Source: Halopelagius longus
GTDB lineage: Archaea > Halobacteriota > Halobacteria > Halobacteriales > Haloferacaceae
Reading direction: 5' to 3'
Length of the DNA: 64,000 nucleotides
Assembly: GCF_900100875.1 (NCBI RefSeq)
Contig: NZ_FNKQ01000005.1
Location: forward strand, 124,001 to 188,000
Part shown: positions 34,955-64,000 of the stretch, in pieces
How the letters are laid out: each line of letters starts with the position of its first letter
Numbering within the stretch: the stretch's first letter is position 1
Position numbers and translations under genes: made by a program
Notes under the pieces: generated by a model
The model's input: the letters and a program-made list of their open reading frames with translations, nothing else
Database searches by the model: none
What the model was told of the DNA's origin: nothing

Positions 34955-34959
34955 TAACG

Positions 34960-38071: not shown

Positions 38072-38153
38072 CGACTCGGTACCGAGAATCCTCGTCGTTC
38101 GTACCGCCACTCGCGTACTGGAACCGGGACTCGACACCGCGAACGTGACCCCT

Positions 38154-38162
38154 AGATTAACT
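38154..38162 (+). promoter_or_regulatory. TATA-like promoter of the Yip1-type gene
   Basis: AGATTAACT lies about 30 nt before the ATG at 38188. Confidence 0.4.
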
Positions 38163-38187
38163 TTCTCGTCGGGTGAACCGGTTAGCG

Positions 38188-38769: not shown

Positions 38770-38963
38770 GCCCCACCGAGAAGAGACAGCAACTCCGAAA
38801 CGGATGCGAAGCCCGAACCGTGCGTCTCGGTACCGCGTGAGTGGCAACAGTCGAGATTCTACTCTCGGCGACAGCCCTACGTCGCGACGGTGAGACTCGG
38901 ATATCCACGATTCGAGTCGAGCGTCGGCGTCGGGAGGACGCCGATAAGTGAAAGCTCACCGAC

Positions 38964-38972
38964 AAATATATG
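38964..38972 (+). promoter_or_regulatory. TATA-like promoter of the ABC-2 export operon
   Basis: AAATATATG lies about 38 nt before the ATG at 39006, implying a short leader of about 12 nt. Confidence 0.45.
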
Positions 38973-39005
38973 GTCCCTCCAGCACCCTCTTCTCGGAAGA
39001 GAACG

Positions 39006-40774: not shown

Positions 40775-40789
40775 CGGCGGGGCGCGGAA

Positions 40790-41038
40790 CTACCGACCGC
40801 CGCCCCGTTCGACGACGAGATGCTCGGACAGCGACTGTGCACGACTCGCGGGAATCACGAGGTAGCCGTCTCCGTTCCGTTCGAACGAAGTGGGCCGTTC
40901 GGACTCCGAATCGACGAGGAACTGCCGCAGTTCACCCGTTCGAACGTCCATCGTGACGCTCCGTAAGGTTCCTACCTTCGACCCGTCGGACCCGACAACC
41001 GGAGTTCCCAGCAGATCCGTTCTCAGTACACCAGTCAT
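40790..41038 (-). CDS. PRC-barrel domain protein
   Basis: The 82-residue protein is one PRC-barrel: LRTDLLGTPVVGSDGSKVGTLRSVTMDVRTGELRQFLV, then YLVIPASRAQSLSEHLVV. Such small barrels occur in RNA-processing, photosynthetic and cell-division proteins, and in archaea are often linked to division or ribosome work. It is convergent with the ABC-2 permease gene, with only 15 bp between the stops. Confidence 0.8.
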   Translation of the reverse strand: MTGVLRTDLLGTPVVGSDGSKVGTLRSVTMDVRTGELRQFLVDSESERPTSFERNGDGYLVIPASRAQSLSEHLVVERGGGR

Positions 41039-41136
41039 ACACCCTGATACTCTCGGTTAGTGATAAATAATTCGGAGGCTCAGAGCGCAGTTTCAGTCAC
41101 GGCGGTCCCGCAGTTCGAACGAGTGCCGTCGGCGAC

Positions 41137-42054: not shown

Positions 42055-42148
42055 GACTCCCCGATGTCACCGAAGCGACATATAATCCGCGGAAGAGTAA
42101 TTCTCTGCTCCGAAGGTACTTCCCGTCGGCAGGTGAGCCACAGACACG

Positions 42149-44101: not shown

Positions 44102-44512
44102 GGCGCGAGACCGGTTCGGCGGGCGCATCGTCCCTTCCTCTGTCCGCCCGCGTCGTTCGGTGGGGCGTCGGCGTCTTCCCCCGGCCCTCGGCGCGTCGGC
44201 CGCCTCGGCCGACGGAGTCGAATCGACCCGACGACGACGGCGACGCTCAGCTCCGATTTTCCGCCCGCGGATAGCGCACCAACTGCCCAATTCGAGAGAG
44301 GTAGCCCCTCAGAACCGCCGTCGGGTGCCTACAGGGCCATTATCACGAGAGATATTCGCACCCGCGACGTTATATGTGAGATATAATACTGGGTATCTAG
44401 TGCGCGACTCAGATACGATTCCGGGCGACGAGTCGACCGATGCGGTCACAGCGACCAGCATCCGAGATATCCGATTCGGACGTCGGACGAACGGCGGGAA
44501 ACGGGAGAAGAC
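44102..44512. other. 411-bp intergenic region before the transducer gene
   Basis: The left part is GC-rich without a convincing gene. The right part has an AT-rich promoter with the inverted repeat TTATAT-GTGAG-ATATAA (44370-44386), overlapping likely TATA sequence. The start of transcription would be near 44400, leaving a leader of about 110 nt before the ATG at 44513. Confidence 0.5.
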
Positions 44513-47461: not shown

Positions 47462-47874
47462 TCTCGAATCGTCGTTCGTCCTCGGACGCCGTACTTTTCG
47501 AATTCGATCTTTTCCGAGTTTTAGACGGCTGTATCGGAGGTTTTTCATTCCGTCCCGACGAGAGCCGACTGTCGAACGGAGCAAACGTCTGAGTCCGGTT
47601 TTATACAATATCGGTTGTACTAAACGAGGGAGGAGAGACGCCGCAGACGCTCGCGTCGTTTCGCGAGTTCGACTCCGTCGTGTCCGCTCGATGCCCGTCT
47701 CCTGTGAGATGCAACGGTCGCCGAAACTGGCCGGGTGCCTGTACCCGGCCGTCGGGAACGGCGCGACTGGCCGAACGTCACTACGTACGAGAACGACCAG
47801 ACGACGGCGACGGTCGTTCCCGAGGTCGTCCGGACCGTTCTCTTTATCCCGGGAGACGACGATACCCGGGACGA
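47462..47874. other. 413-bp intergenic region
   Basis: Beyond the T-rich 3' end only GC-rich sequence without a convincing gene is seen. A TATA-like TCTTTATCC (47841-47849) serves the next gene. The 65-codon in-frame extension upstream of 47875 is therefore rejected. Confidence 0.5.
47485..47552 (+). terminator. T-rich possible terminator after the transducer gene
   Basis: Several T-runs (ACTTTTCG, ATCTTTTCC, GAGTTTTAG and GGTTTTTC) follow the stop codon within about 90 bp, the usual form of archaeal intrinsic termination. Confidence 0.45.
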
Positions 47875-48549
47875 ATGTCGGAGTCCTTGCCGAGTCCCGT
47901 CGCGACGGCGACGACGGTCATCCGCGTGCTCTACGCGGAACTGCTCACTATCGTCGTTGCGAGCCTGCTGACGGCGGTGGCGTCCCTGCCGCTCGTCACC
48001 GTCGGTCCGGCGATACTGGCCGCCGTCGAGGTGCTGACGACAGTCGTCACCCGTCGCGACACCGGCGCGCCGCCGACGGAGCGCGGACGAGTTCGTCTGT
48101 TCGTCGAGGCCTTCCGCCGGAATCTGAAGACGGGTCTCCCGTTCAGTCTCCTCTTGCTCTCGGTCGGCGGAGTGACTGCGTTCTACTACGTCGTCGGGAC
48201 GGCGCGAAACGACGGCGGCCTCCTGTTACTCGCGCTCCTCGGCGCGTACGGCGTCGTCGGTGCACTAGCGGTGACGCTCCGGGTCGGTAGCTTTCGCGCG
48301 CGGACGTCGCCGCCGCCGTCCGCGGTTCGTGCGCTTCGGCTGACCGGACAGTCCTTCACCGAGTACGTCTCGTACACCGTCCTCTGGCTCGTCTCGCTCG
48401 CCGGTCTCCTCGTGGTCGCGAGGTACGTTCCGGTGACGGTGCCGATGCTTTTGGTGGGCGTCCTCGGCGTGATAGAGGTCGTCGCGTTCGAGGCGGTGGT
48501 CGGCGACGGCGCGGCGGCCGTCGCCCCGGACGCGGACGTCGAATCGTGA
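47875..48549 (+). CDS. YesL/DUF624-like membrane protein
   Basis: The 224-residue protein has about five membrane helices, starting with LYAELLTIVVASLLTAVASLPLVTVGPAILAAVEVLTTVV. A conserved-looking cytoplasmic loop FVEAFRRNLKTGLPFSLLLLS follows. This pattern of polar FxxxFRxNxK after two helices is characteristic of the DUF624/YesL group, often found beside sugar ABC transporters in bacteria. Its function is unknown. It is convergent with the sugar-transporter operon that ends at 48560, only 10 bp away. Confidence 0.72.
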   Translation: MSESLPSPVATATTVIRVLYAELLTIVVASLLTAVASLPLVTVGPAILAAVEVLTTVVTRRDTGAPPTERGRVRLFVEAFRRNLKTGLPFSLLLLSVGGVTAFYYVVGTARNDGGLLLLALLGAYGVVGALAVTLRVGSFRARTSPPPSAVRALRLTGQSFTEYVSYTVLWLVSLAGLLVVARYVPVTVPMLLVGVLGVIEVVAFEAVVGDGAAAVAPDADVES

Positions 48550-48559
48550 CGTCGGCCCG

Positions 48560-49420
48560 TTACCCCTTCATGCCGCTGAGCGTCATCCCGCGGATGAAGT
48601 ACCGCTGGGCGGACATGAAGACGACGATGACGGGGAGGACGATGACCGCCGCCGCGGCCATCACCAGTCCCCACTCGGTGAAGTACTGATTCCGCACCGC
48701 GAACAGCGCCACCGGCAGCGTATACATCGACTCGTCGCTCGCGATGATCAGCGGCCACTCGAAGTTCTTCCAGGTCGTCACGAACGTGTAGATGCCGAGC
48801 GTCGCCAGCGCCGGCTTGGCGAGCGGGAGATAGACCTTGTAGAAGGTCTGGAACTCGTTACAGCCGTCTATCTTCGCCGCGTCGCCCAGCGAGGACGGGA
48901 GGTTCATGAAGTGCTGGCGGAGCAGGAAGATACCGAGCGGGTTGGCGATCATGGGCGCGATCAGCCCCTGGTAGGTGTTTACCCACCCGAGGTTCGACAG
49001 GAGGATGTACACCGGGATCAGCGTCACCATCGCCGGGACCATGATCGTCGCGACGAACAGCAGGAACAACTTCTCGCGACCGACGAACTCGATCTTTGCC
49101 AGGGCGTACCCCGCGAGGCTGTCGAACACGAGGTTGAACGCCGTGACGCTGCCGGCGAAGACGATGGTGTTGAAGAACCACCGGCCGACGGGCTGGGTCG
49201 CGAACAACTCCTCGAAGTTCGCGAGCGTCGTCTGCTCGGGGACGAGCGACACGGACCCGGCCGTGGGGTTCGCGCTGAGCGCGGTCGACAGCATCCACCA
49301 AAACGGGAGGGACCAAAGCAGCGCGCCGAGCGTGATGCTTCCGTACAGCAACGCCGTCTTCGACCAGTAGCGGGCACCTGCTCGCTCGTATCCGGGGTAG
49401 TCGTAGCTCGATTTGGACAT
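48560..49420 (-). CDS. sugar ABC permease, MalG type (galactoside system 1)
   Basis: The 286-residue permease has about six helices. The coupling loop SSLGDAAKIDGCNEFQTFYKVYLPLAKPAL (about 185-215) matches the EAA motif, and the chain ends in the family RYFIRGMTLSGMKG. The start at 49420 overlaps the stop of the MalF-type gene (TGATG). The frame reads much further upstream only because it crosses that gene in another phase. Confidence 0.93.
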   Translation of the reverse strand: MSKSSYDYPGYERAGARYWSKTALLYGSITLGALLWSLPFWWMLSTALSANPTAGSVSLVPEQTTLANFEELFATQPVGRWFFNTIVFAGSVTAFNLVFDSLAGYALAKIEFVGREKLFLLFVATIMVPAMVTLIPVYILLSNLGWVNTYQGLIAPMIANPLGIFLLRQHFMNLPSSLGDAAKIDGCNEFQTFYKVYLPLAKPALATLGIYTFVTTWKNFEWPLIIASDESMYTLPVALFAVRNQYFTEWGLVMAAAAVIVLPVIVVFMSAQRYFIRGMTLSGMKG

Positions 49421-50445
49421 CAGTAAGCCACCTCGTCCTGTTGTTCGATCCGGTAACGGTAGTAGCTGAACACGAACACGACGGCGAACAGGAAGAACGC
49501 CATCGCGCTCGCTCGTCCGAAACTGCTCTTGACGAACGCCGTCTCGTAGATGAGGACGACGACCGTCGTCGTGGCGCGGGCCGGGCCACCCTCCGCGAAC
49601 GCCAGCGCGATGCCGAACACCTGGAACGTGCCGATGATGGCAAGCACAGTGACGAAGAAGTGGGTGTTCCGGAGGTTCGGCCAAGTCACGTGGCGGATCC
49701 GGTCCAGCCCGTCGGCGCCGTCGATCCGAGCCGCTTCGTACAGTTCGTCGGGGATGTTCTGGAGGCCGGCGAGGTAGAGGATCATGTTGAACCCGATGCC
49801 GCCCCACAGGCCGATGAGCATCAACGCGCCCAGCGCCGTGTTCGGGCTGTTCGCCCAGCCGTAGGCGAGGCCCACCGGGCGGAGGAACTCGTTGACGACG
49901 CCGTTCTGCGACAGGATCCAGCGCCAGATGACGCCGCTCGCGGCCGCAGACAGCATCACCGGGAGGAAGTACGCGGCGCGGTACACCTTCTTGCCGCGGA
50001 TGCGACTGTCCAGGGCCAACGCCACGAGGAACCCTCCGATGATCTGGACGGGGACCACGACCGCCGTGTAGGCCACCGTGTTCCGGACGGCGAACCACCA
50101 GAGATTGAACGACGGGCTCCGCAGGGAGGCCCAGTTGTTCTCCCACGGGAGCGGTTGCAGTATTTCGACGTAGTTCCCCACGGGGAGGCGCAGACCGAAC
50201 ACCTCCGTCCAGGCCGGTTTCCCGGTTCCGAGGAACAGGTTCCACTCCTGGAAGGAGAGGACGAAGGCGTACAGTATCGGCCCGAGCAGGAACACCGAGA
50301 ACACCACCACGTTAGGGATGACGAAGAGGAAGCCGGCGAGGTTGTTCTCCTCGGTCGGCCGATCGACGACACGGCCCGCGACCGAACGGACCGCCGATCC
50401 GGCGCGCCGGAACGACGACCGGATGGACTCGGTAGGCGTGCTCAC
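49420..50445 (-). CDS. sugar ABC permease, MalF type (galactoside system 1)
   Basis: A 341-residue permease. A cytoplasmic N-terminal tail is followed by GFLFVIPNVVVFSVFLLGPILYAFVLSFQEW as the first helix. The coupling loop DELYEAARIDGADGLDRIRHVTWPNLRNTHF lies near 233-263. The ATG overlaps the ATPase stop by four bases, so ATPase, MalF and MalG genes are translationally coupled in that order. Confidence 0.93.
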   Translation of the reverse strand: MSTPTESIRSSFRRAGSAVRSVAGRVVDRPTEENNLAGFLFVIPNVVVFSVFLLGPILYAFVLSFQEWNLFLGTGKPAWTEVFGLRLPVGNYVEILQPLPWENNWASLRSPSFNLWWFAVRNTVAYTAVVVPVQIIGGFLVALALDSRIRGKKVYRAAYFLPVMLSAAASGVIWRWILSQNGVVNEFLRPVGLAYGWANSPNTALGALMLIGLWGGIGFNMILYLAGLQNIPDELYEAARIDGADGLDRIRHVTWPNLRNTHFFVTVLAIIGTFQVFGIALAFAEGGPARATTTVVVLIYETAFVKSSFGRASAMAFFLFAVVFVFSYYRYRIEQQDEVAY

Positions 50446-51638
50446 GGTCGATCACCAGTGTTCGTCTCGCCCGCCCCGTCGGCGAGCGTATCGCCGTCCG
50501 ACCTGGTCGACGTCCCCACGACGCCCGGTGCGGTCTCCTCGGTCCGCGTCCGGTTGAAGACGGCCTCCCCCGTCTCACCGTCGAACGCGTGGACGTGGTC
50601 GACCGGGAGAGACACTCGGACGCGGTCGCCCTCGCGGACGCGCTGGCCGCCCGAAACGGTGGCGACGATTTCGCCCATCTCGTGGCGCAGATGGAGGACG
50701 TTCTCGCTCCCCATCGGTTCGACGATGCTGGCGACGAACTCCGTCGTCCGCGGCCCGGGTTCGTCGGCGAGGACGACGTCCTCCGGTCGGACGCCGAGCG
50801 TCACCGAGTCGCCGCCGAGGTCCGCGGACAGTGCCTCGCGCTGGGCCTCGGTCAGTTCGTACGTGTACCCGGGGAGTTGCAGGTGTTCGCCGTCGAACGT
50901 CGCGTCCAGTGTGTTCATGGAGGGGGAGCCGATGAACGTCGCGACGAACTCGTTGGCCGGTTCGTAGTACATCTCCATCGGCGTGCCGACCTGCTGGAGT
51001 TGCCCGGATTCGAGGACGGCGATGCGGTCGCCCATCGTCATCGCCTCCGTCTGATCGTGCGTGACGTACACCGTCGTGGCCTCGAGTTCACCGTGAAGCT
51101 CCTGGAGTTCCGTCCGCATCTGCGTCCGGAGTTTGGCGTCGAGGTTCGAGAGGGGTTCGTCCATCAGGAACACCGCCGGGTTCCGCACGATAGCCCGACC
51201 GAGAGCGACGCGCTGTTGCTGTCCGCCGGAGAGGGCCCGCGGACGCCGGTCCAGTAACTCCGTGATATCGAGCAGTTCGGCGGCTTCCTCGACGCGACGC
51301 GTGATCTCCTCGTCGTCGAGGTCGGTCGTCATCTCCAGCCCGAATCGCATGTTCCCCGAGACCGTCTTCTGAGGGTACAGCGCGTAGTTCTGGAACACCA
51401 TCGCTATGTCGCGGTCCTTGGGCTTTACGTCCGTGACGTCGCGACCGTCGATACGGATTTCGCCCTCGCTGACCGTCTCGAGCCCTGCGATCGTTCGCAG
51501 CGTCGTCGACTTCCCGCACCCGGACGGGCCGACGAGGACGAGGAACTCCCCGTCGCGAATTTCGAGCGACAGGTCGTCGACGGCGACGATGTCGTCGCCG
51601 AACCGCTTCGTCACGCCGTCGAGCGTCGTTCGTGCCAT
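50442..51638 (-). CDS. sugar ABC transporter ATPase, MalK type (galactoside system 1)
   Basis: A 398-residue ATPase: Walker A GPSGCGKST (about 38-46), MVFQNYALYPQKT, signature LSGGQQQR, Walker B VFLMDEPLSNLDAKLRTQM, THDQTEAMTMGDR. The C-terminal domain is TOBE-like, and a Thr/Asp-rich tail extends beyond typical MalK length. It follows the binding-protein gene by only one base between stop and start, and precedes MalF with a four-base overlap. All four parts of the importer are thus in one operon. Confidence 0.94.
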   Translation of the reverse strand: MARTTLDGVTKRFGDDIVAVDDLSLEIRDGEFLVLVGPSGCGKSTTLRTIAGLETVSEGEIRIDGRDVTDVKPKDRDIAMVFQNYALYPQKTVSGNMRFGLEMTTDLDDEEITRRVEEAAELLDITELLDRRPRALSGGQQQRVALGRAIVRNPAVFLMDEPLSNLDAKLRTQMRTELQELHGELEATTVYVTHDQTEAMTMGDRIAVLESGQLQQVGTPMEMYYEPANEFVATFIGSPSMNTLDATFDGEHLQLPGYTYELTEAQREALSADLGGDSVTLGVRPEDVVLADEPGPRTTEFVASIVEPMGSENVLHLRHEMGEIVATVSGGQRVREGDRVRVSLPVDHVHAFDGETGEAVFNRTRTEETAPGVVGTSTRSDGDTLADGAGETNTGDRP

Positions 51639-51639
51639 T

Positions 51640-52953
51640 CTAGAGTTGTTCGTTGATCTGCCGTTCGGCGGCGGTCATGGCGGTTTCGGGGTCCTTGTTG
51701 CCGGTCAGTACGGCCTCCGCTTCGTTCATGATGGTGTCGAGGATGGTCGACGTCTTGGGACCGAACACCATCGGACGGCTGGCGTCGCCCAGGTCGCCGA
51801 GTCCCGAGAGCAGGGGGCGGTCGTTGTAGAAGTCGCGGTCGAGCAGCGACTGGCGCGAAGGGAGTGCGGTCCCGGTGCTGGCCCACTCCCACATTCCCTC
51901 TTTGTTCGTGAGCGCCTTGATCAGATCGACCGAGGCACCGGGAGCGTTCGTTTTCGCAGACGCGGACCAGGCCGTCGTGAACGAGATGGTCACTTTCTCG
52001 CCGCCCTCCGGGGTCGGCATCCCGACCTCCGTCGCCTCGTAGATGTCGCCGTAGTCCTGTTCGAGCGTAGACACCGACCACGCACCGGTCATCGCCATGC
52101 TGATGCTTCCGTCGCCCATCGCAGGCGGCGCCCACGTCGCTTCGATGTCGTCGCCGTAGATACCCGCGAGGTCGTCCTCGACGAGTCCGTTGAGGAACTG
52201 CATGGCTTCGACGGCCTCCTGGGAGCCGACGACGGCTTCGCTCCCGTCCTCGGAGAGCACGTTGCCGCCGTTCTGCCAGATGAGCTGTATGAGCGTGTTC
52301 CGCGGCTGACTCCCGACCGCCATCGGAAAGTCGACGTCGGTCGACTCGCCGATAGCTTCGAGCGCGCTCCGGAGTTCGCTCCACGTCGTCGGTGCCGACA
52401 CCCCGGCGGTCTCGAGGTGGTCGGTGTTGTAGAACAGGCCGACCGGCGTGAAGTCCTTGGGGATGCCGTACACCGTCCCCTCGTACGTGAACGGTTCGAG
52501 CAGGTTGTCGAGGATGTCGTCGAAGTTGTACTCCTCGGCGTCTTTTAGCTCGGACCCGACGCCGAGGAGCGCGCCGTTTCGCATGAATTGGGGCGCCTCG
52601 TCGGCGATCATGTAGAAAACGTCGGGCTCCTTGCCGCCGGCGAACTGGGTCTGAAGGTTCTGATAGAACTGCTCGTTGGGCGTGTTCTGGTACTTGACCT
52701 TGACGCCGTCCGTCGACTCCTCGTAATCGTTTAGAATGCCGGTCACGATCTCTCGTTCGAGTCCCTCGCCCCAACTGGCGACGGTCAGCGTGGTCGTCTC
52801 GCCCGAACCACCGTCGGTGGATTCACCGCCGCCGGTGCCCGCGGTGCCGCCGCCACCGTCGCCGCTACAACCGGCGATGCCGACGGCCGCGCCGACGCCG
52901 AGTGTTTTCACGAGCGAACGTCTACTGAGGTCTGGCGGATATGACTCTGTCAT
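51640..52953 (-). CDS. sugar-binding lipoprotein, MalE type (galactoside system 1)
   Basis: A 437-residue protein. Its Tat signal is LSRRSLVKTLGVG and its lipobox IAGC has Cys29, followed by a Gly/Ser/Thr-rich linker. The sugar-binding family 1 pattern includes LTVASWGEGLEREIVTGILNDYE, PDVFYMIADEAPQF and YGIPKDFTPVGLFYNTDHLE. It delivers its sugar to the MalFGK part downstream. It lies divergent from the GH4 alpha-galactosidase gene, so alpha-galactosides such as melibiose or raffinose are the likely ligand. Confidence 0.93.
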   Translation of the reverse strand: MTESYPPDLSRRSLVKTLGVGAAVGIAGCSGDGGGGTAGTGGGESTDGGSGETTTLTVASWGEGLEREIVTGILNDYEESTDGVKVKYQNTPNEQFYQNLQTQFAGGKEPDVFYMIADEAPQFMRNGALLGVGSELKDAEEYNFDDILDNLLEPFTYEGTVYGIPKDFTPVGLFYNTDHLETAGVSAPTTWSELRSALEAIGESTDVDFPMAVGSQPRNTLIQLIWQNGGNVLSEDGSEAVVGSQEAVEAMQFLNGLVEDDLAGIYGDDIEATWAPPAMGDGSISMAMTGAWSVSTLEQDYGDIYEATEVGMPTPEGGEKVTISFTTAWSASAKTNAPGASVDLIKALTNKEGMWEWASTGTALPSRQSLLDRDFYNDRPLLSGLGDLGDASRPMVFGPKTSTILDTIMNEAEAVLTGNKDPETAMTAAERQINEQL

Positions 52954-52970
52954 GGGTCGCTCCTTGTCAT

Positions 52971-53001
52971 TGGGGAAGGACTATCCCCATTTATAATTTA
53001 C
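52971..53001 (-). promoter_or_regulatory. promoter of the transporter operon with inverted repeat
   Basis: A minus-strand TATA-like TAAATTATAAATGG (52988-53001) is followed by TGGGGA-AGGACTA-TCCCCA (52971-52989). The repeat would cover the transcription start near 52970. An AGGAG ribosome-binding sequence precedes the ATG at 52953, so this transcript has a short leader. Confidence 0.5.
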
Positions 53002-53040
53002 CCACCATTAATGAATAGAGATAGACAGTTCGAACGAGAT

Positions 53041-53048
53041 TTTATTAG
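53041..53048 (+). promoter_or_regulatory. TATA-like promoter of the alpha-galactosidase gene
   Basis: TTTATTAG lies about 29 nt before the ATG at 53073. It shares one 119-bp divergent region with the transporter promoter, so one regulator could control both. Confidence 0.5.
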
Positions 53049-53072
53049 CTTCTATCTACGAGAGGAGACCGA

Positions 53073-54380
53073 ATGGTGAAGATTACCTTCATCGGAGCGG
53101 GTAGTATGGTGTTTTCCACGAAGCTCGTGGGCGACATCCTCTCGTTTCCGGAGCTCGACGACAGCACGATCGCGTTGATGGACATCGACGCGGACAGCTT
53201 AGAGAAGACGACGCGGGTCGCCGAGGCCATGGTCGCTAACGAGGGGCTCGAGGCGACGGTCGAGTCGACCACCGACCGAGTCGAGGCGCTCGACGGAGCC
53301 GACTACGTGCTGAACATGATCAACGTCGGCGGAACGGAGCCGTTCGAGAACGAGATCCGCATCCCGGAGAAGTACGGCGTCGAGCAGTCCATCGGTGACA
53401 CGATCGGGCCGGGCGGTATCTTCCGCGGGCTCAGGACCATCCCCACGATGCTCGACATCGCGAGCGACATCGAAGAGGTGTGTCCCGACGCCCTGCTGTT
53501 GAACTACACGAACCCGATGTCCATCCTCTGTCAGACCATGTTCGAGGCGACGGACGTCGAGACAGTCGGGCTCTGTCACAGCGTCCCCCACACGGTGGAG
53601 GCTATCGCCGACTACGTCGACGTTCCCCAGGAGGACCTCGACTACTGGGTCGCGGGTATCAACCACGTCGCCTGGTTCCTCGAAGCCACCCACGAGGGAG
53701 AGAGCGTCTATCCGGCGCTCCGCGACGCGATGGAAGACCCCGAGATATACGAACGCGACACGGTCCGCTTCGAGATGATGGACCACTTCGGCTACTTCCC
53801 GACCGAGTCGTCCCACCACATGTCGGAGTACGTCCCTTACTTCCGGACCGACCCGGAAACTATCGAGGAGATGACCGGCACGGACTACGCCGAGCGCATG
53901 CCCACCGCGACCTACCTCGAGGGCTGGCAGGAGCGCTCCGAGCGCCGCGACGACCCGGACCTCGACGTCGACTTGGACGAGGTTTCGGTCGAACGCTCCG
54001 AGGAGTACGCCTCCCGGCTCATCCACTCCATCGAGACGGACACGACCCGCCGGCTGAACCTCAACGTCAGCAACGCGACCGACGCGATCACGAACCTCCC
54101 GTCGGACGCCTGCGTCGAGGTCCCGGTGCTCGTCGACGGGACGGGCCTGCACCCCTGTTCCGTCGGCGACCTCCCAGCCTCGGTCCGGACCTTCCCCCAG
54201 CAACACGTCGCCGTCCACCGCCTCGTCGTCGAAGGCGCTCTGAAGAACGACCGCGAGAAGATCCACCGCGCCGTCAAGCAGGACCCGCTGACGGCCGCCG
54301 CGCTGAGCCTCGACGAGATTCACGAGATGACCGAGGAACTGCTCACGGCCAACGAGGAGTACCTGCCGGAACTGAACTGA
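53073..54380 (+). CDS. glycoside hydrolase family 4 (alpha-galactosidase, MelA-like)
   Basis: The 435-residue enzyme has the GH4 NAD site at its N-terminus (ITFIGAGSMVFS, residues 4-15). NYTNPMS (144-150), CHSV (168-171) and GINHVAW (195-201) supply the cysteine and histidine that bind the divalent metal. CHSV is the motif of the alpha-galactosidase branch, as opposed to the glucuronidase or phospho-glucosidase branches. GH4 enzymes cleave by oxidation at C3 and elimination, needing NAD+ and Mn2+. There is no signal peptide, so it acts on imported alpha-galactosides. Confidence 0.9.
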   Translation: MVKITFIGAGSMVFSTKLVGDILSFPELDDSTIALMDIDADSLEKTTRVAEAMVANEGLEATVESTTDRVEALDGADYVLNMINVGGTEPFENEIRIPEKYGVEQSIGDTIGPGGIFRGLRTIPTMLDIASDIEEVCPDALLLNYTNPMSILCQTMFEATDVETVGLCHSVPHTVEAIADYVDVPQEDLDYWVAGINHVAWFLEATHEGESVYPALRDAMEDPEIYERDTVRFEMMDHFGYFPTESSHHMSEYVPYFRTDPETIEEMTGTDYAERMPTATYLEGWQERSERRDDPDLDVDLDEVSVERSEEYASRLIHSIETDTTRRLNLNVSNATDAITNLPSDACVEVPVLVDGTGLHPCSVGDLPASVRTFPQQHVAVHRLVVEGALKNDREKIHRAVKQDPLTAAALSLDEIHEMTEELLTANEEYLPELN

Positions 54381-54527
54381 AGGTTCGTTTCGGCTCACTG
54401 CGCCGATATCTCACCGCCCGTCTAGCTCGTGGCGTCCCACGTCTCTGACAGGGGGGAGTACCGGCTTCGGTACCAGGACGGATCGAGAGCGAACACATTT
54501 TTGGTGGTCTCTCTCGGAGGTCGAACC

Positions 54528-55181
54528 ATGACGAGAAAGCAGGCGGTCCAGCGACAGCTCGTAGAGAGCGGAGTCGTCGCGGTTCTGCGCGGCATTCCGC
54601 GGGAGAAAGTCGTCGACGTGGCGAGCGCGATTCACGAGGGGGGCGTCACCGCCCTCGAAATCACGGCCGACGCGGAGCGGTATCCGGAGATGATTTCGGC
54701 GGTCGCCGCGGCGCTCGACGGGACAGACGCCGTCGTCGGCGCCGGAACCGTCACGGACGCCGCCACCGCGCGAAACGCCATCGACGCCGGCGCGGAGTTC
54801 GTTCTCGCGCCCGACCTCAGCGAGAGCGTCGTCCGCGTCTGCAACCGCGAGGGCGTCGTCTCCGCGCCGGGCGTCACGACGCCGACGGAGGCCGTCACCG
54901 CGTTGGAAGCGGGGGCGGACATCCTCAAGATGTTCCCGGCCTCGACCGTCGGTCCCGACCACGTCAGCGCGTTGCGCGGACCGTTGGGCGACGTACCCAT
55001 CATGCCCACCGGTGGCGTCTCGGCCGACGACGTGGCCGACTACTTCGAGGCCGGTGCCGTCGCCGTCGGCGCGGGGTCGGCGCTCGTCGACTACGAGGCC
55101 ATCGAAGACGACGACATGGACGCCGTCACGGCGCAGGCCGCCGAGTTCGTCGAGGCGGTCGAAGCCGCCCGGTCGGACTGA
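54528..55181 (+). CDS. KDPG/KDPGal aldolase (class I, Eda/DgoA-like)
   Basis: The 217-residue TIM-barrel aldolase has catalytic Glu44 in ALEITADAE, the Schiff-base Lys134 in DILKMFPAST, and the C-terminal phosphate-binding GGVSADDV and AVGAGSAL loops. It cleaves 2-keto-3-deoxy-6-phospho-gluconate or -galactonate to pyruvate and glyceraldehyde 3-phosphate. GGAGG lies about eight bases before the ATG at 54528, and the in-frame ATG at 54429 is rejected. It pairs with the kinase gene that is convergent with it. Confidence 0.9.
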   Translation: MTRKQAVQRQLVESGVVAVLRGIPREKVVDVASAIHEGGVTALEITADAERYPEMISAVAAALDGTDAVVGAGTVTDAATARNAIDAGAEFVLAPDLSESVVRVCNREGVVSAPGVTTPTEAVTALEAGADILKMFPASTVGPDHVSALRGPLGDVPIMPTGGVSADDVADYFEAGAVAVGAGSALVDYEAIEDDDMDAVTAQAAEFVEAVEAARSD

Positions 55182-55244
55182 ACCGTCGCGGGGGTCGAGA
55201 GGAGCCGAGAGTTCGACGGTTCTCGTTCCGCTTCCGGCGGCGCC

Positions 55245-56201
55245 TCACCGGTCGATTTCGCTCGCCCGTTCCGCTCTGACGCTGGCTACCTCCTCGGGCG
55301 TCACGACAGCGAGGTCGCCGTCTATCGTTCGTTTGACGGCCGCCGTCGCCGCCGCCGTCTCCAAGGCGTCGTCGACAGCGCTCCCGTCGAGTCGCGCGGC
55401 GACGTACCCGCCGACGAACGCGTCGCCGGTACCTATCGGGTCGAGCGTGTCCGCCTCGAACGCAGGTTGTTCGAGCACCGCCTCGCCCGTCGCGGCGACG
55501 GCCCCCTCGGCCCCCCGCGTGAGTATCACCGTCTCGTGGCCGCCGTCGCGCCTGAGTTCCTCGGCGACGGACGCCGCGGTTCCGCTCCGGTTCAACACCC
55601 GTTCCGCGTCGCGCCGGGCGACGACGAGAACGTCCACGTGCGGGAAGAGGTCGGTCAGCGTCTCGCGGGCCTCCGCGGGCGACCAGAGTTTCTCTCGGTA
55701 GTTCACGTCGAAGTAGGTCGTGAGACCCTCGTCGTTCGCTCGGCGGAGCAACGCCGCCGTCGTCTCGCGGAGGCGCGGCGAGAGCGCGGGGGTGATCCCG
55801 CTGGTGTAGAACGCGGCGGCGGCGGCGAACAGGTCCTCGACCGGGAACTCCTCGGGCGTCGCGGTCCGGACGGCGGCGTCCTCGCGGTCGTAGATGACGG
55901 TCGTCCCGCGGGGGTCCCCCCCTCGTTCGATGTAGTACGTCCCCATCCGACCGTCGTCGCTCCACGAAATCTCCGTCTCGACGCCGTGCGCGGCCACGTC
56001 GCGGACCGCCCGCCGACCCAACGCCGAGTCGGGGAGTTTCGAGAGCCAGCACGCGTCCGCGCCGAGTCGCGCCGCCGCGACGGCGACGTTGCTCTCCGCG
56101 CCCGCGGTGCGGAACGCCAGTTCGCGGGCCGTCTCGATTCGCTCGCCCGCCTGCGGCGACAGGCGGAGCATCGTCTCGCCGAATGTGAGCAGTGAAGCCA
56201 T
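55245..56201 (-). CDS. kdgK: 2-keto-3-deoxy-sugar-acid kinase (PfkB family, KDG kinase-like)
   Basis: The 318-residue ribokinase-family protein opens LLTFGETMLRLSP and has the GAESNVAVAAARLG motif near 35. The C-terminal signature DPIGTGDAFVGG near 253-264 contains the catalytic Asp. Sequence type and neighbours fit a kinase that phosphorylates 2-keto-3-deoxygluconate or -galactonate, making the substrate of the aldolase encoded next to it. The open frame extends far upstream but only as antisense of the GH42 gene end. The ATG at 56201 is used. Confidence 0.88.
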   Translation of the reverse strand: MASLLTFGETMLRLSPQAGERIETARELAFRTAGAESNVAVAAARLGADACWLSKLPDSALGRRAVRDVAAHGVETEISWSDDGRMGTYYIERGGDPRGTTVIYDREDAAVRTATPEEFPVEDLFAAAAAFYTSGITPALSPRLRETTAALLRRANDEGLTTYFDVNYREKLWSPAEARETLTDLFPHVDVLVVARRDAERVLNRSGTAASVAEELRRDGGHETVILTRGAEGAVAATGEAVLEQPAFEADTLDPIGTGDAFVGGYVAARLDGSAVDDALETAAATAAVKRTIDGDLAVVTPEEVASVRAERASEIDR

Positions 56202-56353
56202 CTTTGTCACTCGTCTCGCTACGTCACGCGACGACGGATGCGACTGTAAGCGTTCCGAACGACGCCGTAGGGTCCGTTCGAACGTCCGCGCGAAGCAACT
56301 CCGGAGAGGTGACCGAACTATCCGTGGGGTCGCTCCCCGACGGAGAGCGCCGA

Positions 56354-58384
56354 TTACTCCTCGGCCGGCGAGAGAGACGAGAGGTTCGCGTCCGTGACGG
56401 CGACGGCGGCGGGGCCGACGGTCGGACCGCCGAGCACCCACTCGGCGTCGTCGGGCGCGTCCACGGACAGCGAGTCGCCGCCGAAGTTCGCAATCCACGT
56501 CAGGCCGCCGCGGCGCGAGGCGCGAACCTGCGCCGGGAACGCGTCGGTGGTTTCGACCCCGGCGCGGTCCAACAGGTCGCCGACCACCGCGCCCGTGAGG
56601 TCCGAGTCCGGCCACGTGCCGACGTAGGTGACGGATCCGTCGCCGACGGCGTTGCGGACGATAGCCGGACTCCCGTCGGCCATCGACCCCTCGTACCGAC
56701 CGACAACCTCGGCTCCCTCCTCGGTCGGCGAGAGCCACTCGTTCCAGACGCGACAGCCGAACTCCCGCCCGCCGTACGTGAGGCGGGATTCGAGCGACTC
56801 GGGGACGCTCTCGTGTTGCTCGACGCGAGCACCGACGAGAGAGCGAAGGGGGCCGGGTTGGGCGTCGTCGTGGAGTTTGTTGTGGGCGTCCTTCACGCCG
56901 GACCGCATCGTCACGAGCAGTTCCCCGCCGCCCTCGACGTACGCGGTCAGCGTCTCGGCGAGTTCGTCGGTAGCGAGGTACAGCGTCGGCGCGACCACCG
57001 CGTCGTACGCCGCTAACTCCGCGGTCGGCGGCACAACGTCCACGTGGACCGAGCGCTCCCGCAGGGCCGCGTAGTACGTCTCGACGTGCCGCCAGTAGTC
57101 GAAGTCGGGCGTCATCGGTTCGATCTCCGACGCCCAGAGGTTGTCGTAGTCGTGGAGGAGAGCCACGTCGGCGTCCGGCGACGCAAACGACCCGTCTGCG
57201 TCGCCCGCGGCGACCGAGGCGAGTTCGTCGAGGTCCGACGCGGCGGCGACGGCGTCTCCGTACCCGCGGTCGGGGGTGCCGTCCTCCGCGAGCAGACCGC
57301 TGTGGTACTGCTCTTGGCCCATCCGGCACCGACGCCACCGGAAGTACGAAACCACGTCCGCGCCGCGAGCGACGGCGTAGAGCGCCCACAGGCGCATCGC
57401 GCCCTCGGCGGGTTGCGGCGAGTACGGCGGCCAGTTGATGTCGCCCGGTTGCTGTTCCATCACCCAGAAGGGCGCGTCCGCCGCGCTCCTGTACAGGTCG
57501 TGGTCGAGTCCGACGTTGTCCGGGTCACCCGCGCGCAGTTCCTCGTCCGATACCGCCTCGTGTTGCACCTGCACGTGCCCCGTCGGGTAGGAGTCCCACG
57601 ACGCGAAGTCCAAGTCGGCCGCCACGTCGTAGGCGTCGAGGTCGTCGTGCGACATGAAGTTGTGCGTGACGAACCACTCGTCGTTCGCCTCGCGGAGGAT
57701 ATCGACCTGCAACCGGTTGTACTCCGCGACGCTGTCGCTGCTGAAGCGGTAGTAGTCGAGCAACCGGGAGGGGTGGTGCCCGGCGGCCGCGTGCCGCGGC
57801 GGGTCGACTTGGGCGAAGGAGTTCAGCGTCTGACTCCAGAACTCGGTGCCCCACGCCTCGTTGAGCGAGTCGATGTCGCCGTACGTCTCCCGAAGCCAGT
57901 CCCGAAACGCGCTCGCGCAGTCGTCGCAGTAACACCGAAGCGTCCCGTGACAGCCGTACTCGTTATCCGTCTGCCAGCCGGCGACCGTCGGGTCGTCGGC
58001 GTACCGGTCCGCCAGTTTCTCCGTGATTCGACGACTTTCCCGCCGGAACTCCTCGGAGTTGTAGCAGTAGTGACGCCGGCCGCCGTAGTGTCGGGTCGTC
58101 CCGTCGGCCTCCTCCTGCAGTATCCCCGGATACTCGTCTACCAACCACTTCGGGGGCGCGGCCGTCGGCGTACAGAGCACCGCTTGCATCCCGTGGTCGC
58201 CGATACGCGAGACGGCGCGGTCCAACCACTCGAAGTCGTACGCTCCGGGTTCCGGTTCCATCCGCGACCACGCGAACTCGCCCATCCGGACGTACTCCAG
58301 TCCGGCGTCGGCCATCCGTTCGACGTCCGCCTCCGTCCGTTCGTCCGGCCAGTGCTCCGGGAAGTAGCACACACCTATCGACAT
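56354..58384 (-). CDS. glycoside hydrolase family 42 beta-galactosidase
   Basis: A 676-residue GH42 enzyme. GVCYFPEHWPDERTEADVERMADAGLEYVRMGEFAWSRMEP-type start (split here: GVCYFPEHW at 4-12, GEFAWSRMEP at 35-44). The acid/base is Glu142 (DNEYG) and the nucleophile Glu310 (WVMEQQPG). Cys107, Cys151, Cys153 and Cys156 match the zinc-site cysteines known in GH42. A trimerisation and a C-terminal beta domain follow. There is no signal peptide. A TATA-like box (58405-58414) gives it its own leaderless promoter after the transporter genes. Confidence 0.94.
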   Translation of the reverse strand: MSIGVCYFPEHWPDERTEADVERMADAGLEYVRMGEFAWSRMEPEPGAYDFEWLDRAVSRIGDHGMQAVLCTPTAAPPKWLVDEYPGILQEEADGTTRHYGGRRHYCYNSEEFRRESRRITEKLADRYADDPTVAGWQTDNEYGCHGTLRCYCDDCASAFRDWLRETYGDIDSLNEAWGTEFWSQTLNSFAQVDPPRHAAAGHHPSRLLDYYRFSSDSVAEYNRLQVDILREANDEWFVTHNFMSHDDLDAYDVAADLDFASWDSYPTGHVQVQHEAVSDEELRAGDPDNVGLDHDLYRSAADAPFWVMEQQPGDINWPPYSPQPAEGAMRLWALYAVARGADVVSYFRWRRCRMGQEQYHSGLLAEDGTPDRGYGDAVAAASDLDELASVAAGDADGSFASPDADVALLHDYDNLWASEIEPMTPDFDYWRHVETYYAALRERSVHVDVVPPTAELAAYDAVVAPTLYLATDELAETLTAYVEGGGELLVTMRSGVKDAHNKLHDDAQPGPLRSLVGARVEQHESVPESLESRLTYGGREFGCRVWNEWLSPTEEGAEVVGRYEGSMADGSPAIVRNAVGDGSVTYVGTWPDSDLTGAVVGDLLDRAGVETTDAFPAQVRASRRGGLTWIANFGGDSLSVDAPDDAEWVLGGPTVGPAAVAVTDANLSSLSPAEE

Positions 58385-58404
58385 ACGAACAGTATCTCCG
58401 CGCC

Positions 58405-58414
58405 GCTATAAGAA
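58405..58414 (-). promoter_or_regulatory. TATA-like promoter of the GH42 gene
   Basis: Minus-strand TTCTTATAGC is centred about 26 nt before the ATG at 58384. Confidence 0.5.
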
Positions 58415-58464
58415 CGTGCGGGAATCCACAACGAACGATTGTGAGTGTCGGGTCGGGAGAAGGG

Positions 58465-59595
<1,131 letters not shown>

Positions 59596-59603
59596 TGTTT
59601 TTC

Positions 59604-60440
59604 CTATTGTTTGACCGAGCCCGAGAGGATTCCCTTGATGAAGTACTGCTGCAGGAAGATGAACGTCAGGAAGATGGGGATGATCCCCAGCGAGGTGGCA
59701 ACCATCACTTGGTCGAAGTACACCCGCTGTTGCCCCACGAGTTGCGCCAACGCGAGGGGGATGGTGAACATCTCCTCCTCCTGGAGGATGACGAGCGGGT
59801 AGAGGAACGCCTGCCACTGGTTGAGAAAGAGGATGATCGCGAGCGCCGCCAACGACGGAAGCATCGTCGGCAGCGCTATCTTGTAGTACAGTTGGAACTC
59901 CGTCGCGCCGTCCATCCGCGCCGATTCGAGCAACGCGTCGGGGATGGCTTTCATGTTCTGCCGCATCAGGAAGATTCCCAGCGGGTTCGCCGCCCACGGG
60001 AGAATCACCGCGAGGTACGAGTTCGTCCACCCGAGTTGCGTCATCAACAGGAACAGCGGGATGATGAGCAACTGAATCGGGAGGACGAGCGTCGCCAGTA
60101 TGAAGTAGAACAGCGGCTCTTTGAACTTGAAGTCGTACTTCGCGAAGGCGAAGCCCGCCATCGAACAGAGGACGAGCGACAGCGCCGTGTACGAGACGGA
60201 GATGATGAGGCTGTTGCCGATGCTCCGAACGAAGTCTACGTTCTCCTGCAACGCGCGGAAGTTTTCGAGGTAGTGGATCCCCGGAAGGAGGCGGGGCGGC
60301 CACGAGAAGAACTCCGACTGCGGAATCGTCGCCGCCACGATCATCCAGTAGATGGGTATCATCACGAGCGCCGTGATAGTCAACAGGAAGATGTAACCTC
60401 CGAACTTCCACAGCGCCTCTCTCTTGGTTTCTTGCCGCAT
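59604..60440 (-). CDS. sugar ABC permease, MalG type (galactoside system 2)
   Basis: The 278-residue permease has about six helices and the coupling loop DALLESARMDGATEFQLYYKIALPTMLPSLAAL (about 181-213). Its C-terminus QQYFIKGILSGSVKQ is typical for MalG. The ATG at 60440 overlaps the last base of the MalF-type stop codon (TAATG), so the two are coupled. Confidence 0.93.
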   Translation of the reverse strand: MRQETKREALWKFGGYIFLLTITALVMIPIYWMIVAATIPQSEFFSWPPRLLPGIHYLENFRALQENVDFVRSIGNSLIISVSYTALSLVLCSMAGFAFAKYDFKFKEPLFYFILATLVLPIQLLIIPLFLLMTQLGWTNSYLAVILPWAANPLGIFLMRQNMKAIPDALLESARMDGATEFQLYYKIALPTMLPSLAALAIILFLNQWQAFLYPLVILQEEEMFTIPLALAQLVGQQRVYFDQVMVATSLGIIPIFLTFIFLQQYFIKGILSGSVKQ

Positions 60441-61459
60441 TATTCGGTGCCTCCGTACTGGATCTGTATTATCGACATGATGCTCACGAGGACGACGAGC
60501 GCGACCGAGACAGCGCTCGCGTATCCGAGGTTCAGTTGGAGGAACGCCTGCCTGTAGATGTACTGTACCATCGTGATCGTCGCGTTGGACGGGCCGCCGC
60601 CGGTGATGACGAACGGTTCCGCGAATATCTGGAACGTCCCGATGGTCGAGGAGACGACCACGAACAGAAGCACCGGCCGAAGCTGCGGGAGCGTCACGTA
60701 GCGGAACTTCTGCCACCGCGTCGCGCCGTCGACTTCGGCCGCTTCGTACAGCTGTTCGGGGACCGTCTGGAGGCCGGCCAGCAGGATGATCATGTTGTAC
60801 CCGAGCCAGCGCCAGGTCACGGCGATGACGAGCGTGATTCGCGCCCACCACGCGTCGCCCAGCCACGGAATCGCGTCGGCGCCGAGGCTCTGGAGGACGT
60901 AGTTCACCAACCCGACGTCGCCGTTGAACAGCAACAGGAAGATGGTGGAGTACGCGACCAAGCCCGTCGCCACCGGCAGGGCGATGAGCGTCCGGAACAG
61001 CCCCTTCGCTCTGATGAACTTCGCGTCGAGCACGAGCGCCGTCGCGAGGCCGAGTACGACCATCAACGGCACTTGGATTAAGAAGATGAACGAGGTGTTG
61101 AACAGGGACTTGTGGAACAGCGAGTCTTGGAACAACAGCCGCTCGTAGTGGCTGAGTCCGACGAACTCCAACTCGGCTATCTGCGGTATCGCTATCTGGA
61201 GTACCCCCAAGTCGACGGTCAAGAGCACCGCGTTCGACGACCCGAGGTACTCGAAGAACGAGAGGTACAGCGTGTACGCCGTCGGGAACAGCAGGAATAT
61301 CCCGAACAGGACGAAGAACGGCGAGATGTACAGGTACGGAAGGGCCGGTATCCGCGGAACGACGTCGGAGACGCGCTGGCGACGGTACCGGAACTGGTCG
61401 GCGAGCCGCCGGTACGCGCCCGACGAGCGAACTCTCGATTGAATCGCGTTCAGTACCAT
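60440..61459 (-). CDS. sugar ABC permease, MalF type (galactoside system 2)
   Basis: The 339-residue permease has a long cytoplasmic N-terminal tail with basic residues (RRLADQFRYRRQR), then YLYISPFFVLFGIFLLFPTAYTLYLSFFEYLG as its first helix. The coupling loop is EQLYEAAEVDGATRWQKFRYVTLPQLRPVLLF. It follows the binding-protein gene by 78 bp on the same strand. Confidence 0.93.
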   Translation of the reverse strand: MVLNAIQSRVRSSGAYRRLADQFRYRRQRVSDVVPRIPALPYLYISPFFVLFGIFLLFPTAYTLYLSFFEYLGSSNAVLLTVDLGVLQIAIPQIAELEFVGLSHYERLLFQDSLFHKSLFNTSFIFLIQVPLMVVLGLATALVLDAKFIRAKGLFRTLIALPVATGLVAYSTIFLLLFNGDVGLVNYVLQSLGADAIPWLGDAWWARITLVIAVTWRWLGYNMIILLAGLQTVPEQLYEAAEVDGATRWQKFRYVTLPQLRPVLLFVVVSSTIGTFQIFAEPFVITGGGPSNATITMVQYIYRQAFLQLNLGYASAVSVALVVLVSIMSIIQIQYGGTE

Positions 61460-61537
61460 TCGGTCACACCTCCGTCGTCGCTGGCGCGTTCGTCCGGTTC
61501 ATGGTGGTGGCTCCGGGTCGGGGCGCGTGGAGACGCA

Positions 61538-62890
61538 TTATGCTACGTCGCGGTCGGTTCGGCTGGCGACCGTCTCCGCGGCGCTTTGCATGGCCTTCTC
61601 CGGAGACTTGCCGTCCAGCATGTTCCCGATTTCGGTGTTGATGGCGTCGATGACCTCCGGCGTATCGACCGTGTAGCGGTACGGCTCTATCTCCGTCGCC
61701 ACCTCCGCGAACAGGCGGAACACCGCCTGCCCGCCGTAGAAGTCGAGTTCCTCGTCGTAGATGTCGGACTCGTACGCGGAGGTGAGCGACGGGAACAGCC
61801 CGTACTCTTCGAGCATCATGTTCTGGACGTCGGGCGTCGTCATCGCGTACTCGATGAAGTCCCACGCGCGTTCGACGGTCCCCTCGTCGTCGATTTGGGA
61901 GGGAATCGCCATGTTCGAACCGCCGCGGTTCGACGCTCGGGTGCCGCCCTTCTCGAACGCCGGGAGTTTGTACACGCCCCAGTTTCCGGCGGTGTCCGGA
62001 AGCTCCGCGCGGAGGGTGCCGTCCATCCACGCGGCGGTGGGGATGGAGGCGAGCGTTCCCTCGGAGAACGCGGTGAACCACCCGCCGGACCACATCTCGA
62101 TGCGCTTCGTGATTCCGGCGTCGTGCATGTCCTTGATGAGCTGGGCGGCGCGGACGCTCTCTTCGCTGTTGATGCTCACTGCGCCGTCCTCGGTGAACGG
62201 TTGCCCGCCGAGTTGACGGAACAGCATCCGCCACATCTGCGGCACCGCCTGCGTCGGGATGTTCACCATCGCCACGTCGTCGGGGAGTTGCTTTCCGGCC
62301 TCGATGAAGTCGTCCCACGTCTCGATCGACTTCGGGTCGATGCCGGCCTCCTCGTAACGGTCCCGCTTGTAGAACACGCCGGTCGGGCCGATGTCCCACG
62401 GGAGCGCGTAATCCTTCCCGTCGACGCTGACCGTCTGCCACTTTCCCTCCACGATGTCCTCGCGGACGCCCGCCTCGTCGATGCGGTCGGTGAGGTCCAT
62501 CAGGCCGTTCTTGCTCCCGTAGGCCGTCACGTCGTAGTTCTGAATGGACGAGAAGTCGGGCGCTCCCTTTCCGCTCGTAATCGCGGTCTGGAACCGCTGT
62601 TCCCACGTGGTGCCGCCCATCTCCTCGACCGAAACGTCGGCGTCTTTCTCCTCGTTGTAGGATTCGGCGGCGGAGGCGAGCGCTCTAGCGGCGATGTTCC
62701 AGGCCCACCCGTTAGCCGAGGACGCCATCGACGCCGTGGACTCCCCGCCGGTTCCGGTGTTCGATCCGCCGTTACCTCCGCCGTCGCTTCCGCCGGTGCT
62801 GACGCAGCCAGCCACTCCAGCGGCACCCGCTATTCCGAGCGCGTGCACGAACTGTCGACGGCGTACACTAGGGTCTGCAGAGTCTTTCAT
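61538..62890 (-). CDS. sugar-binding lipoprotein, MalE type (galactoside system 2)
   Basis: A 450-residue protein. RRRQFVHALGIAG and lipobox VAGC with Cys29 form a Tat lipoprotein signal, followed by a Gly/Ser/Thr linker. The mature part has family 1 features such as WEQRFQTAITSGKGAPDFSS and YALPWDIGPTGVFYKRDRYEEAG. The frame runs far upstream, but the ATG at 62890 gives the normal signal. It is divergent from the GH2 beta-galactosidase gene and in line with the GH42 gene, so beta-galactosides are a likely ligand. Confidence 0.92.
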   Translation of the reverse strand: MKDSADPSVRRRQFVHALGIAGAAGVAGCVSTGGSDGGGNGGSNTGTGGESTASMASSANGWAWNIAARALASAAESYNEEKDADVSVEEMGGTTWEQRFQTAITSGKGAPDFSSIQNYDVTAYGSKNGLMDLTDRIDEAGVREDIVEGKWQTVSVDGKDYALPWDIGPTGVFYKRDRYEEAGIDPKSIETWDDFIEAGKQLPDDVAMVNIPTQAVPQMWRMLFRQLGGQPFTEDGAVSINSEESVRAAQLIKDMHDAGITKRIEMWSGGWFTAFSEGTLASIPTAAWMDGTLRAELPDTAGNWGVYKLPAFEKGGTRASNRGGSNMAIPSQIDDEGTVERAWDFIEYAMTTPDVQNMMLEEYGLFPSLTSAYESDIYDEELDFYGGQAVFRLFAEVATEIEPYRYTVDTPEVIDAINTEIGNMLDGKSPEKAMQSAAETVASRTDRDVA

Positions 62891-62929
62891 GGTTAACCCA
62901 TCGAGACCATCTATGTGAAAATGCATTAA

Positions 62930-64000
<1,071 letters not shown>

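Follow-up and report, generated by a model that had tools for sequence, protein, structure and literature searches.

Does a GH4 gene of the haloarchaeon Halopelagius longus encode an alpha-galactosidase, which pathway would its product serve, and how did the gene come to lie where it does? These questions are raised by an open reading frame in the 64,000-nucleotide stretch of DNA analyzed here (the window), which the original prediction had read as a complete CHSV-type GH4 alpha-galactosidase, divergent from its own importer in a GATC-rich block and perhaps gained by transfer. Our reading, held with considerable confidence, is that the gene specifies a cytoplasmic MelA-type alpha-galactosidase that would act on importer-supplied alpha-galactosides and feed the De Ley-Doudoroff pathway and that the block containing melA and the importer was acquired and joined to an older locus. 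The features are collected in Table 1.

Table 1. Predicted features in and next to the melA block (coordinates of the window)
Feature	Coordinates	Strand	Basis
DUF624/MusI-like small membrane protein	47875..48549	+	PF04854, 26.5 bits vs cutoff 24.2
ABC importer permease b	48560..49420	-	PF00528
ABC importer permease a	49420..50445	-	PF00528
ABC importer ATPase, MalK/UgpC type	50442..51638	-	PF00005, PF17912, PF08402
Sugar substrate-binding protein SBP1, divergent importer	51640..52953	-	PF13416, PF01547
Divergent promoter region (putative)	52954..53072	.	119 bp, GC 42%
melA-type GH4 alpha-galactosidase (predicted)	53073..54380	+	Pfam, NCBIfam, motifs, predicted fold
KDPG/KDPGal aldolase	54528..55181	+	PF01081; TIGR01182, 177.8 vs cutoff 156
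KDG/KDGal kinase	55245..56201	-	PF00294; NF041332 haloarchaeal equivalog, 476.4 vs cutoff 440
GH42 beta-galactosidase	56354..58384	-	PF02449, 500 bits; PF08532
Second sugar ABC importer	58465..62848	-	ATPase, two permeases, SBP
Second importer ATPase	58465-59595	-	PF00005
Second importer permeases	59604-60440 and 60440-61459	-	Gene call only
Second importer SBP	61538-62848 or longer	-	PF13416/PF01547
GH2 (LacZ-type) beta-galactosidase start	63065..64000	+	Extends beyond window

The MelA protein and its active site

The melA reading frame starts with ATG, contains no internal stops, and encodes a complete protein of 435 aa. Residues 3 to 407 are covered by PF02056 (190.5 bits; cutoff, 23.2) and PF11975 (185.1 bits; cutoff, 24.1), and the protein passes the NCBIfam alpha-galactosidase model PRK15076 with 551.7 bits against a cutoff of 486. 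The hallmarks of GH4 are present, namely, an N-terminal GxGS nucleotide-binding motif and Cys and His residues of the metal type, and G8, G10, S11, D109, C168, H169, N197, and H198 are invariant in a 34-row alignment. CHSV occupies residues 168 to 171 and GINH residues 195 to 198; the Mn2+ ligands of GH4 enzymes are presumably the Cys and His equivalent to C168 and H198. The tetrapeptide CHSV, which we take to be a mark of alpha-galactosidases and which Escherichia coli MelA has also, aligns with CHEV in LplD and CHGH in AglA; the phospho-glycosidases have CNVP (1s6y, a phospho-beta-glucosidase) or CDMP (GlvA) at this position. A complete CHSV-type GH4 protein was thus confirmed, and the alpha-galactosidase (MelA) subtype holds at the sequence level. 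Two other identities were considered and rejected: an AglA alpha-glucosidase, for which the NCBIfam model alpha_gluc_AglA gave 177.6 against a cutoff of 650, and a phospho-glycosidase, against which models, motifs, and context speak.

No alpha-galactosidase is named among the 14 distinct matches in the PDB, the closest of which are GH4 phospho-beta-glucosidases, LplD, and AglA. An AlphaFold model built from 34 aligned sequences (mean pLDDT, 93.1; pTM, 0.92) had GH4 chains as all of its best 49 Foldseek matches in the PDB, the 50th being a malate dehydrogenase. The protein is acidic (20.0% Asp plus Glu; pI 4.22), compared with 12.9 to 16.0% Asp plus Glu in seven non-haloarchaeal relatives, and would thus be suited to a high-salt cytoplasm. 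The GH4 mechanism described in the available text of PMC10628242 consists of NAD+ oxidation, elimination, water addition, and reduction. By this established chemistry, bound NAD+ would oxidize C3 of the substrate, Mn2+ coordinated by Cys168 and His198 would assist the elimination of the aglycone, and the addition of water followed by reduction back would yield galactose.

The importer and the galactose locus

As had been claimed, melA is divergent from an importer of its own. The importer is complete, with the genes for the SBP, the ATPase, and two permeases all on the minus strand (48560 to 52953), and begins 119 bp from melA, which lies on the plus strand. Its ATPase passes PRK11650 (455.1 bits; cutoff, 432), and the sequence GVRPED within it agrees with G[IV]RPE[DH], the CUT1 motif in the available text of PMC11519228; the same text notes that sugar pathways of haloarchaea have activators of the IclR type, among them GacR, which acts on galactose use. 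The importer would bring in unphosphorylated alpha-galactosides. The DUF624 gene adjoins the same importer in 4/49 related loci. Reading of the intergenic region by eye found a TATA-like TTTTATTA at 53040 to 53047, 26 to 33 nt ahead of the melA ATG, and, on the SBP1 side, a ATTTATAATTT element that is exact in three of eight relatives and has one or two changes in two more.

The genes downstream of melA continue past the window edge, where positions 186001 to 206000 of contig C5 (L059) were read to extend the view. The GH2 gene runs on there (L059:1065-4208; PF02836 among its domains; NF052611, 1032.9 against a cutoff of 999), and the next genes are for a dehydrogenase of the SDR family, a galactonate dehydratase (PRK14017, 672.1; cutoff, 311), and an IclR regulator. 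The galactonate dehydratase, the KDGal kinase, and the KDPGal aldolase all exceed NCBIfam cutoffs, although for the aldolase the model passed is only the general KDPG one; the SDR protein exceeds that of a glucose 1-dehydrogenase subfamily model (229.2; cutoff, 215) and is assigned to the galactose dehydrogenase step by family only. Domain searches were run on 54516 to 55181 for the aldolase and on 55245 to 56210 for the kinase, and the starts of both in Table 1 are those of the gene call. These assignments make up a galactose locus of the De Ley-Doudoroff type that has both alpha- and beta-galactosidases and in which galactose would pass in turn to the SDR protein, the galactonate dehydratase, the KDGal kinase, and the KDPGal aldolase.

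Uronate pathways too use KDG kinase and KDPG aldolase. The presence of both in the locus, and of LplD among the closest solved structures, would also fit a GH4 uronidase, of the LplD or alpha-glucuronidase type, that feeds these two enzymes. However, the motif of the window protein is CHSV, not CHEV; uronate isomerase was found in 0/69 MelA-like loci (neighborhoods of ∼9 kb); and another GH4 protein of the genome, with CHEV and 31% identical, is encoded one gene away from glucuronate isomerase, so the uronidase role looks taken. We consider a uronidase very unlikely and retain the alpha-galactosidase. The second GH4 gene (L060:12193-13674; contig C5, ∼262.2 to 263.7 kb, outside the window), with uxaC as the near neighbor, fails PRK15076 (236.7; cutoff, 486) and is probably a uronidase. 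Elsewhere in the window, we observed a beta-L-arabinofuranosidase-like GH127 protein (29346 to 31283; PF07944) and a protein with a beta-lactamase-type serine hydrolase domain (42149 to 44101; PF00144) adjoining an HTH protein (41137 to 42054).

Distribution, phylogeny, and probable transfer of the block

Matches to MelA at an E value of 1e-3 were found in 11/60 relatives and, patchily, in 87/391 Halobacteria genomes belonging to 37 of 86 genera, with the host counted in each case and 4 of the 87 being weak (E 1e-6 or worse). In a phylum sample, 6/294 genomes (host counted) matched at 1e-20. The idea that such an enzyme is unusual for haloarchaea is not supported, given these counts and a description from 2011 of an alpha-galactosidase in a haloarchaeal De Ley-Doudoroff cluster (available text of PMC3102087). 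Whole-length matches of at least 56% identity (at least 53% by tblastn) occur at 69 loci, which are spread over 53 genomes other than the host's, the window's own copy being excluded. They divide into a closer group of at least 70% identity (49 loci, 45 genomes) and a second group of 56 to 62% (20 loci, 20 genomes), with both groups present together in 12 genomes; the remaining whole-length matches are at most 35% identical. The 69 loci leave out partial matches on the host's own contig C6, on G083:C1, and on G100:C6. On contig C6, L061:8368-8577 encodes 70 aa that are 71% identical to MelA residues 57 to 126; the remainder of the gene is absent from that 18-kb stretch, and the fragment looks like a decayed second copy. 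One genome (G281, contig C2) carries identical melA copies ∼357 kb apart on one replicon (L186 and L187).

Neighborhoods of ∼9 kb on either side were compared, with score thresholds set per query. In the closer group, galactonate dehydratase was found at 27/49 loci (and was missing within 9 kb at 22/49), a related importer ATPase at 37/49, GH42 at 17/49, an IclR gene at 32/49, and a sulfatase at 21/49. The corresponding counts for the second group were 3/20 (all in L195 to L197, which overlap closer-group neighborhoods), 11/20, 0/20, 10/20, and 0/20, the last serving as a control, and an arabinofuranosidase was present at 4/20. The IclR matches are 26 to 64% identical to the query and may regulate other pathways; contig ends truncate the neighborhoods of L156, L173, and L187, and that of L184 is also shortened. 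As judged from gene content, these counts tie the closer MelA group to galactose. The full pathway is seldom all beside melA, since KDPG aldolase was near it at only 7/49 closer-group loci and KDGal kinase at 1/49.

Phylogenies were obtained for 115 rows with FastTree, using 36 of 37 loci chosen from 80 (L073, with an internal stop, was dropped), and more carefully for 51 rows and for the closer group. The haloarchaeal MelA-like copies form one clade, of 77 rows in the FastTree phylogeny and of 15 rows with 100/100 support in the 51-row tree; one long branch, L020_G047x, falls outside the clade and was left uninterpreted. The 51-row tree joins the clade to sequences from Bathyarchaeota, Dehalococcoidia, Zipacnadia (Armatimonadota), and one uncultured archaeon in a wider set supported at 97/92, from which the MelA proteins of E. 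coli, Enterococcus, and Microvirga are separate. Given this place in a mixed set, bacteria and other archaea are both possible sources, and the haloarchaeal clade may have an old origin in either. A direct, recent gain of the window melA from a bacterium would accord with the predominance of bacteria among the non-haloarchaeal GH4 relatives found and with the surroundings of the clade in the trees, which are bacterial and, in a few cases, archaeal. Against it, the closest bacterial sequences found are 45 to 50% identical and haloarchaeal ones up to 89%, the 15 haloarchaeal rows, L020_G047x aside, are a single fully supported clade, and the protein is salt adapted in its composition (20% D+E; pI 4.2). 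In the collections searched, no match from a bacterium was closer than those from haloarchaea. Recent transfer from bacteria is not supported, and we regard it as extremely unlikely.

A further alternative to an acquired block is an ordinary vertical haloarchaeal gene, for which the GATC contrast described below would be chance or local codon use. In the closer-group tree, the 14 host-family copies show at least five label changes on well-supported branches, and an AU test rejects a single clade for them (p 2.4e-64). Vertical distribution is thereby contradicted; the wide distribution that had been named with it as evidence against transfer is real (87/391 genomes). Window MelA groups with Halomicrobium (family f4) and with G019 (family f1) with support of 97/95, and the group is nested in a set of 13 rows (100/97), 9 of them from f4; a caveat for transfer is that G019, one of the two nearest copies, comes from the host's own family. 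The importer is rare and has the same two nearest genomes as MelA: at an E value of 1e-60, permease a was found in 10/194 genomes (host counted), with best matches of 91% in G019, 90% in Halomicrobium (G083), and 84% in G107, others being at most 62%. In G001, the one genus-mate genome compared, neither MelA nor permease a was found.

The neighboring genes have other distributions. At an E value of 1e-150, galactonate dehydratase was present in 109/194 genomes (host counted), with the genus-mate (92%), G019 (88%), and one f4 genome (86%) as best matches. GH42 was present at the same threshold in 35/194 (host counted), the best four being from the host family at 71 to 73% and others at most 63%. 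GH42 was not found in G001 at this cutoff, and it may therefore be mobile too. Some f4 MelA loci hold an SDR gene and a galactonate dehydratase at 81 to 87%; together with the 86% f4 match, these indicate that the neighbor genes are not strictly family bound.

The host genome avoids GATC, with 482 sites in 300 kb (observed/expected, 0.26) over 15 sampled 20-kb stretches and ratios of 0.05 to 0.22 in eight stretches from contigs C1 to C3. These fixed stretches were used in place of a whole-genome paired-GATC pattern, which gave eight sites and was uninformative. The block from 47875 to 54380, whose limits were drawn from synteny rather than from GATC, has 29 sites in 6.5 kb, compared with 38 in 37.5 kb of flanks (38001 to 47874 and 54381 to 64000 of the window plus 18 kb past it; odds ratio, 4.4; Fisher p 1.9e-8). 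The supposed GATC richness therefore holds relative to the genome but not in absolute terms, since the observed/expected ratio of 0.62 is below neutral expectation and high only for this genome. The Halomicrobium 20-kb locus has 9.1 GATC per kb. No GATC occurs in the DUF624 gene, which lies within the block, and the permeases of the second importer, outside it, are intermediate (2.9 to 4.8 GATC/kb). Equally rich windows number 23 of 405 overlapping 6.5-kb windows from the 15 stretches (23/189 on contigs C4 to C7 and 0/216 on C1 to C3), so the GATC sign is weak taken alone, and their frequency on smaller contigs is what a vertical gene has in its favor. The patchy distribution, the conflict of the tree with families, the rarity of the importer, and the absence from the genus-mate argue against it, and we judge vertical descent quite unlikely.

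For an acquired block, tree, rarity, genus-mate absence, and GATC density all point the same way, for one block whose edges are set by synteny. Of the suggested origin by transfer, the part that stands is transfer between haloarchaea, which is well supported by these sequence comparisons; a recent bacterial source is not supported, at identities of 45 to 50% versus 89%. The melA-importer block was probably gained from another haloarchaeon and joined to the older galactose locus. The window contains no tRNAs, and an integration site was not found in it; repeats at 47000 to 55500 are imperfect, are scattered through GC-rich coding DNA, and mark no integration site. In most haloarchaea, GATC is overrepresented, according to the available text of PMC6471742, and a 2018 study of H. 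volcanii reported low GATC with local patches and asked whether these were acquired from a donor of other composition (available text of PMC5867850). The block supports, for one case, the view that GATC-dense patches are acquired DNA. A second, larger GATC-rich stretch lies at 24001 to 38000 of the window (95 GATC in 14 kb; observed/expected, 0.89), where GC falls to 0.54 around 36 to 38 kb; it is another candidate for acquired DNA.

Sulfatase neighborhoods and comparison with known systems

A neighborhood of melA, an IclR gene, and a sulfatase gene recurs in relatives, as at L053:15001-19153 and 20 other haloarchaeal loci, and is absent at the window. The sulfatase lies 1.1 to 7.1 kb from melA at the 21 closer-group loci, two of which are identical copies on one replicon, and the IclR gene is nearer in 20/21. 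The Halomicrobium sulfatase matches PF00884, contains CAPFR, which fits the C-x-P-x-R motif, and has no evident signal sequence (read by eye), and it looks like a formylglycine-type enzyme of the cytoplasm; the others, from families f1, f4, f6, f7, and f14, are 61 to 86% identical to it. A control set of 20 host-genome stretches held one weak sulfatase relative (25%), and a close copy was not found in the host genome, where the best match is 32% over residues 5 to 324. Sulfatase presence changes nine times on the MelA tree, so the gene was apparently gained or lost often. The neighborhoods suggest that sulfated galactosides are substrates in many haloarchaea, not necessarily in the host. A further idea is that haloarchaeal MelA evolved largely to act on sulfated alpha-galactosides and that the window module lost its sulfatase and IclR genes while moving as a GATC-rich cassette; we offer it tentatively and think it rather unlikely. 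If it were true, sulfated galactosides would lose their sulfate after import, be hydrolyzed by MelA, and be broken down through the De Ley-Doudoroff pathway, and a GATC-rich cassette would have entered a genome that avoids GATC and had an older pathway for galactose. Among the 15 matches listed of 332 in a literature search mostly outside subscription journals, none dealt with a MelA-sulfatase unit of haloarchaea, and separate searches found nothing on GH4 motif rules.

The GH4 family, its presence in haloarchaea, and its link to galactose breakdown are not new, given earlier papers and annotated plasmid copies. The De Ley-Doudoroff pathway in Haloferax volcanii is reportedly the subject of a 2020 study by Taestensen et al. 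The available text of PMC3102087 described the pathway in haloarchaea in 2011 and includes a GH4 protein among gene clusters common to soil and sediment haloarchaea, and the available text of PMC13260240 (2026) tabulates one cytoplasmic GH4 alpha-galactosidase for each of two Haloarcula genomes. In a plasmid collection, 18 haloarchaeal records from 13 genera were among the 50 matches listed of 688, and all but 3 of the 18 already bear a melA or alpha-glucosidase/alpha-galactosidase annotation.

E. coli MelA (GH4) is 38% identical to the window protein and has the CHSV, DT, and GINH motifs in common with it, but it is less acidic (pI 5.5), and its gene adjoins that of a melibiose symporter, whereas the window melA adjoins an ABC importer. 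In Halorubrum lacusprofundi, Hlac_2860-2870 include, as in the window, a probable alpha-galactosidase near a beta-galactosidase, together with galactonate dehydratase, KDG kinase, and KDPG aldolase; the available text of PMC3102087 does not state the GH family, and the likeness is in the gene content described. Plasmid pBNX82-3 of Haloferax alexandrinus has a melA product 73% identical to that of the window; all on this plasmid, melA is accompanied, as in the window locus, by beta-galactosidase, eda, kdgK, SDR, and dgoD genes and by those of an ABC importer for sugars, but the gene order differs and a sulfatase and an IclR gene adjoin melA. The closest of these systems is plasmid pLC1Hm-01 of Halomicrobium sp. 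LC1Hm, whose MelA (WP_153554994.1) is 89% identical and whose importer, likewise divergent from melA, has proteins 78 to 93% identical to those of the window. Unlike in the window, melA is followed there by IclR and sulfatase genes, a DUF726 gene stands between melA and the SBP gene, and KDPG aldolase, KDGal kinase, SDR, and galactonate dehydratase have no match within ∼9 kb.
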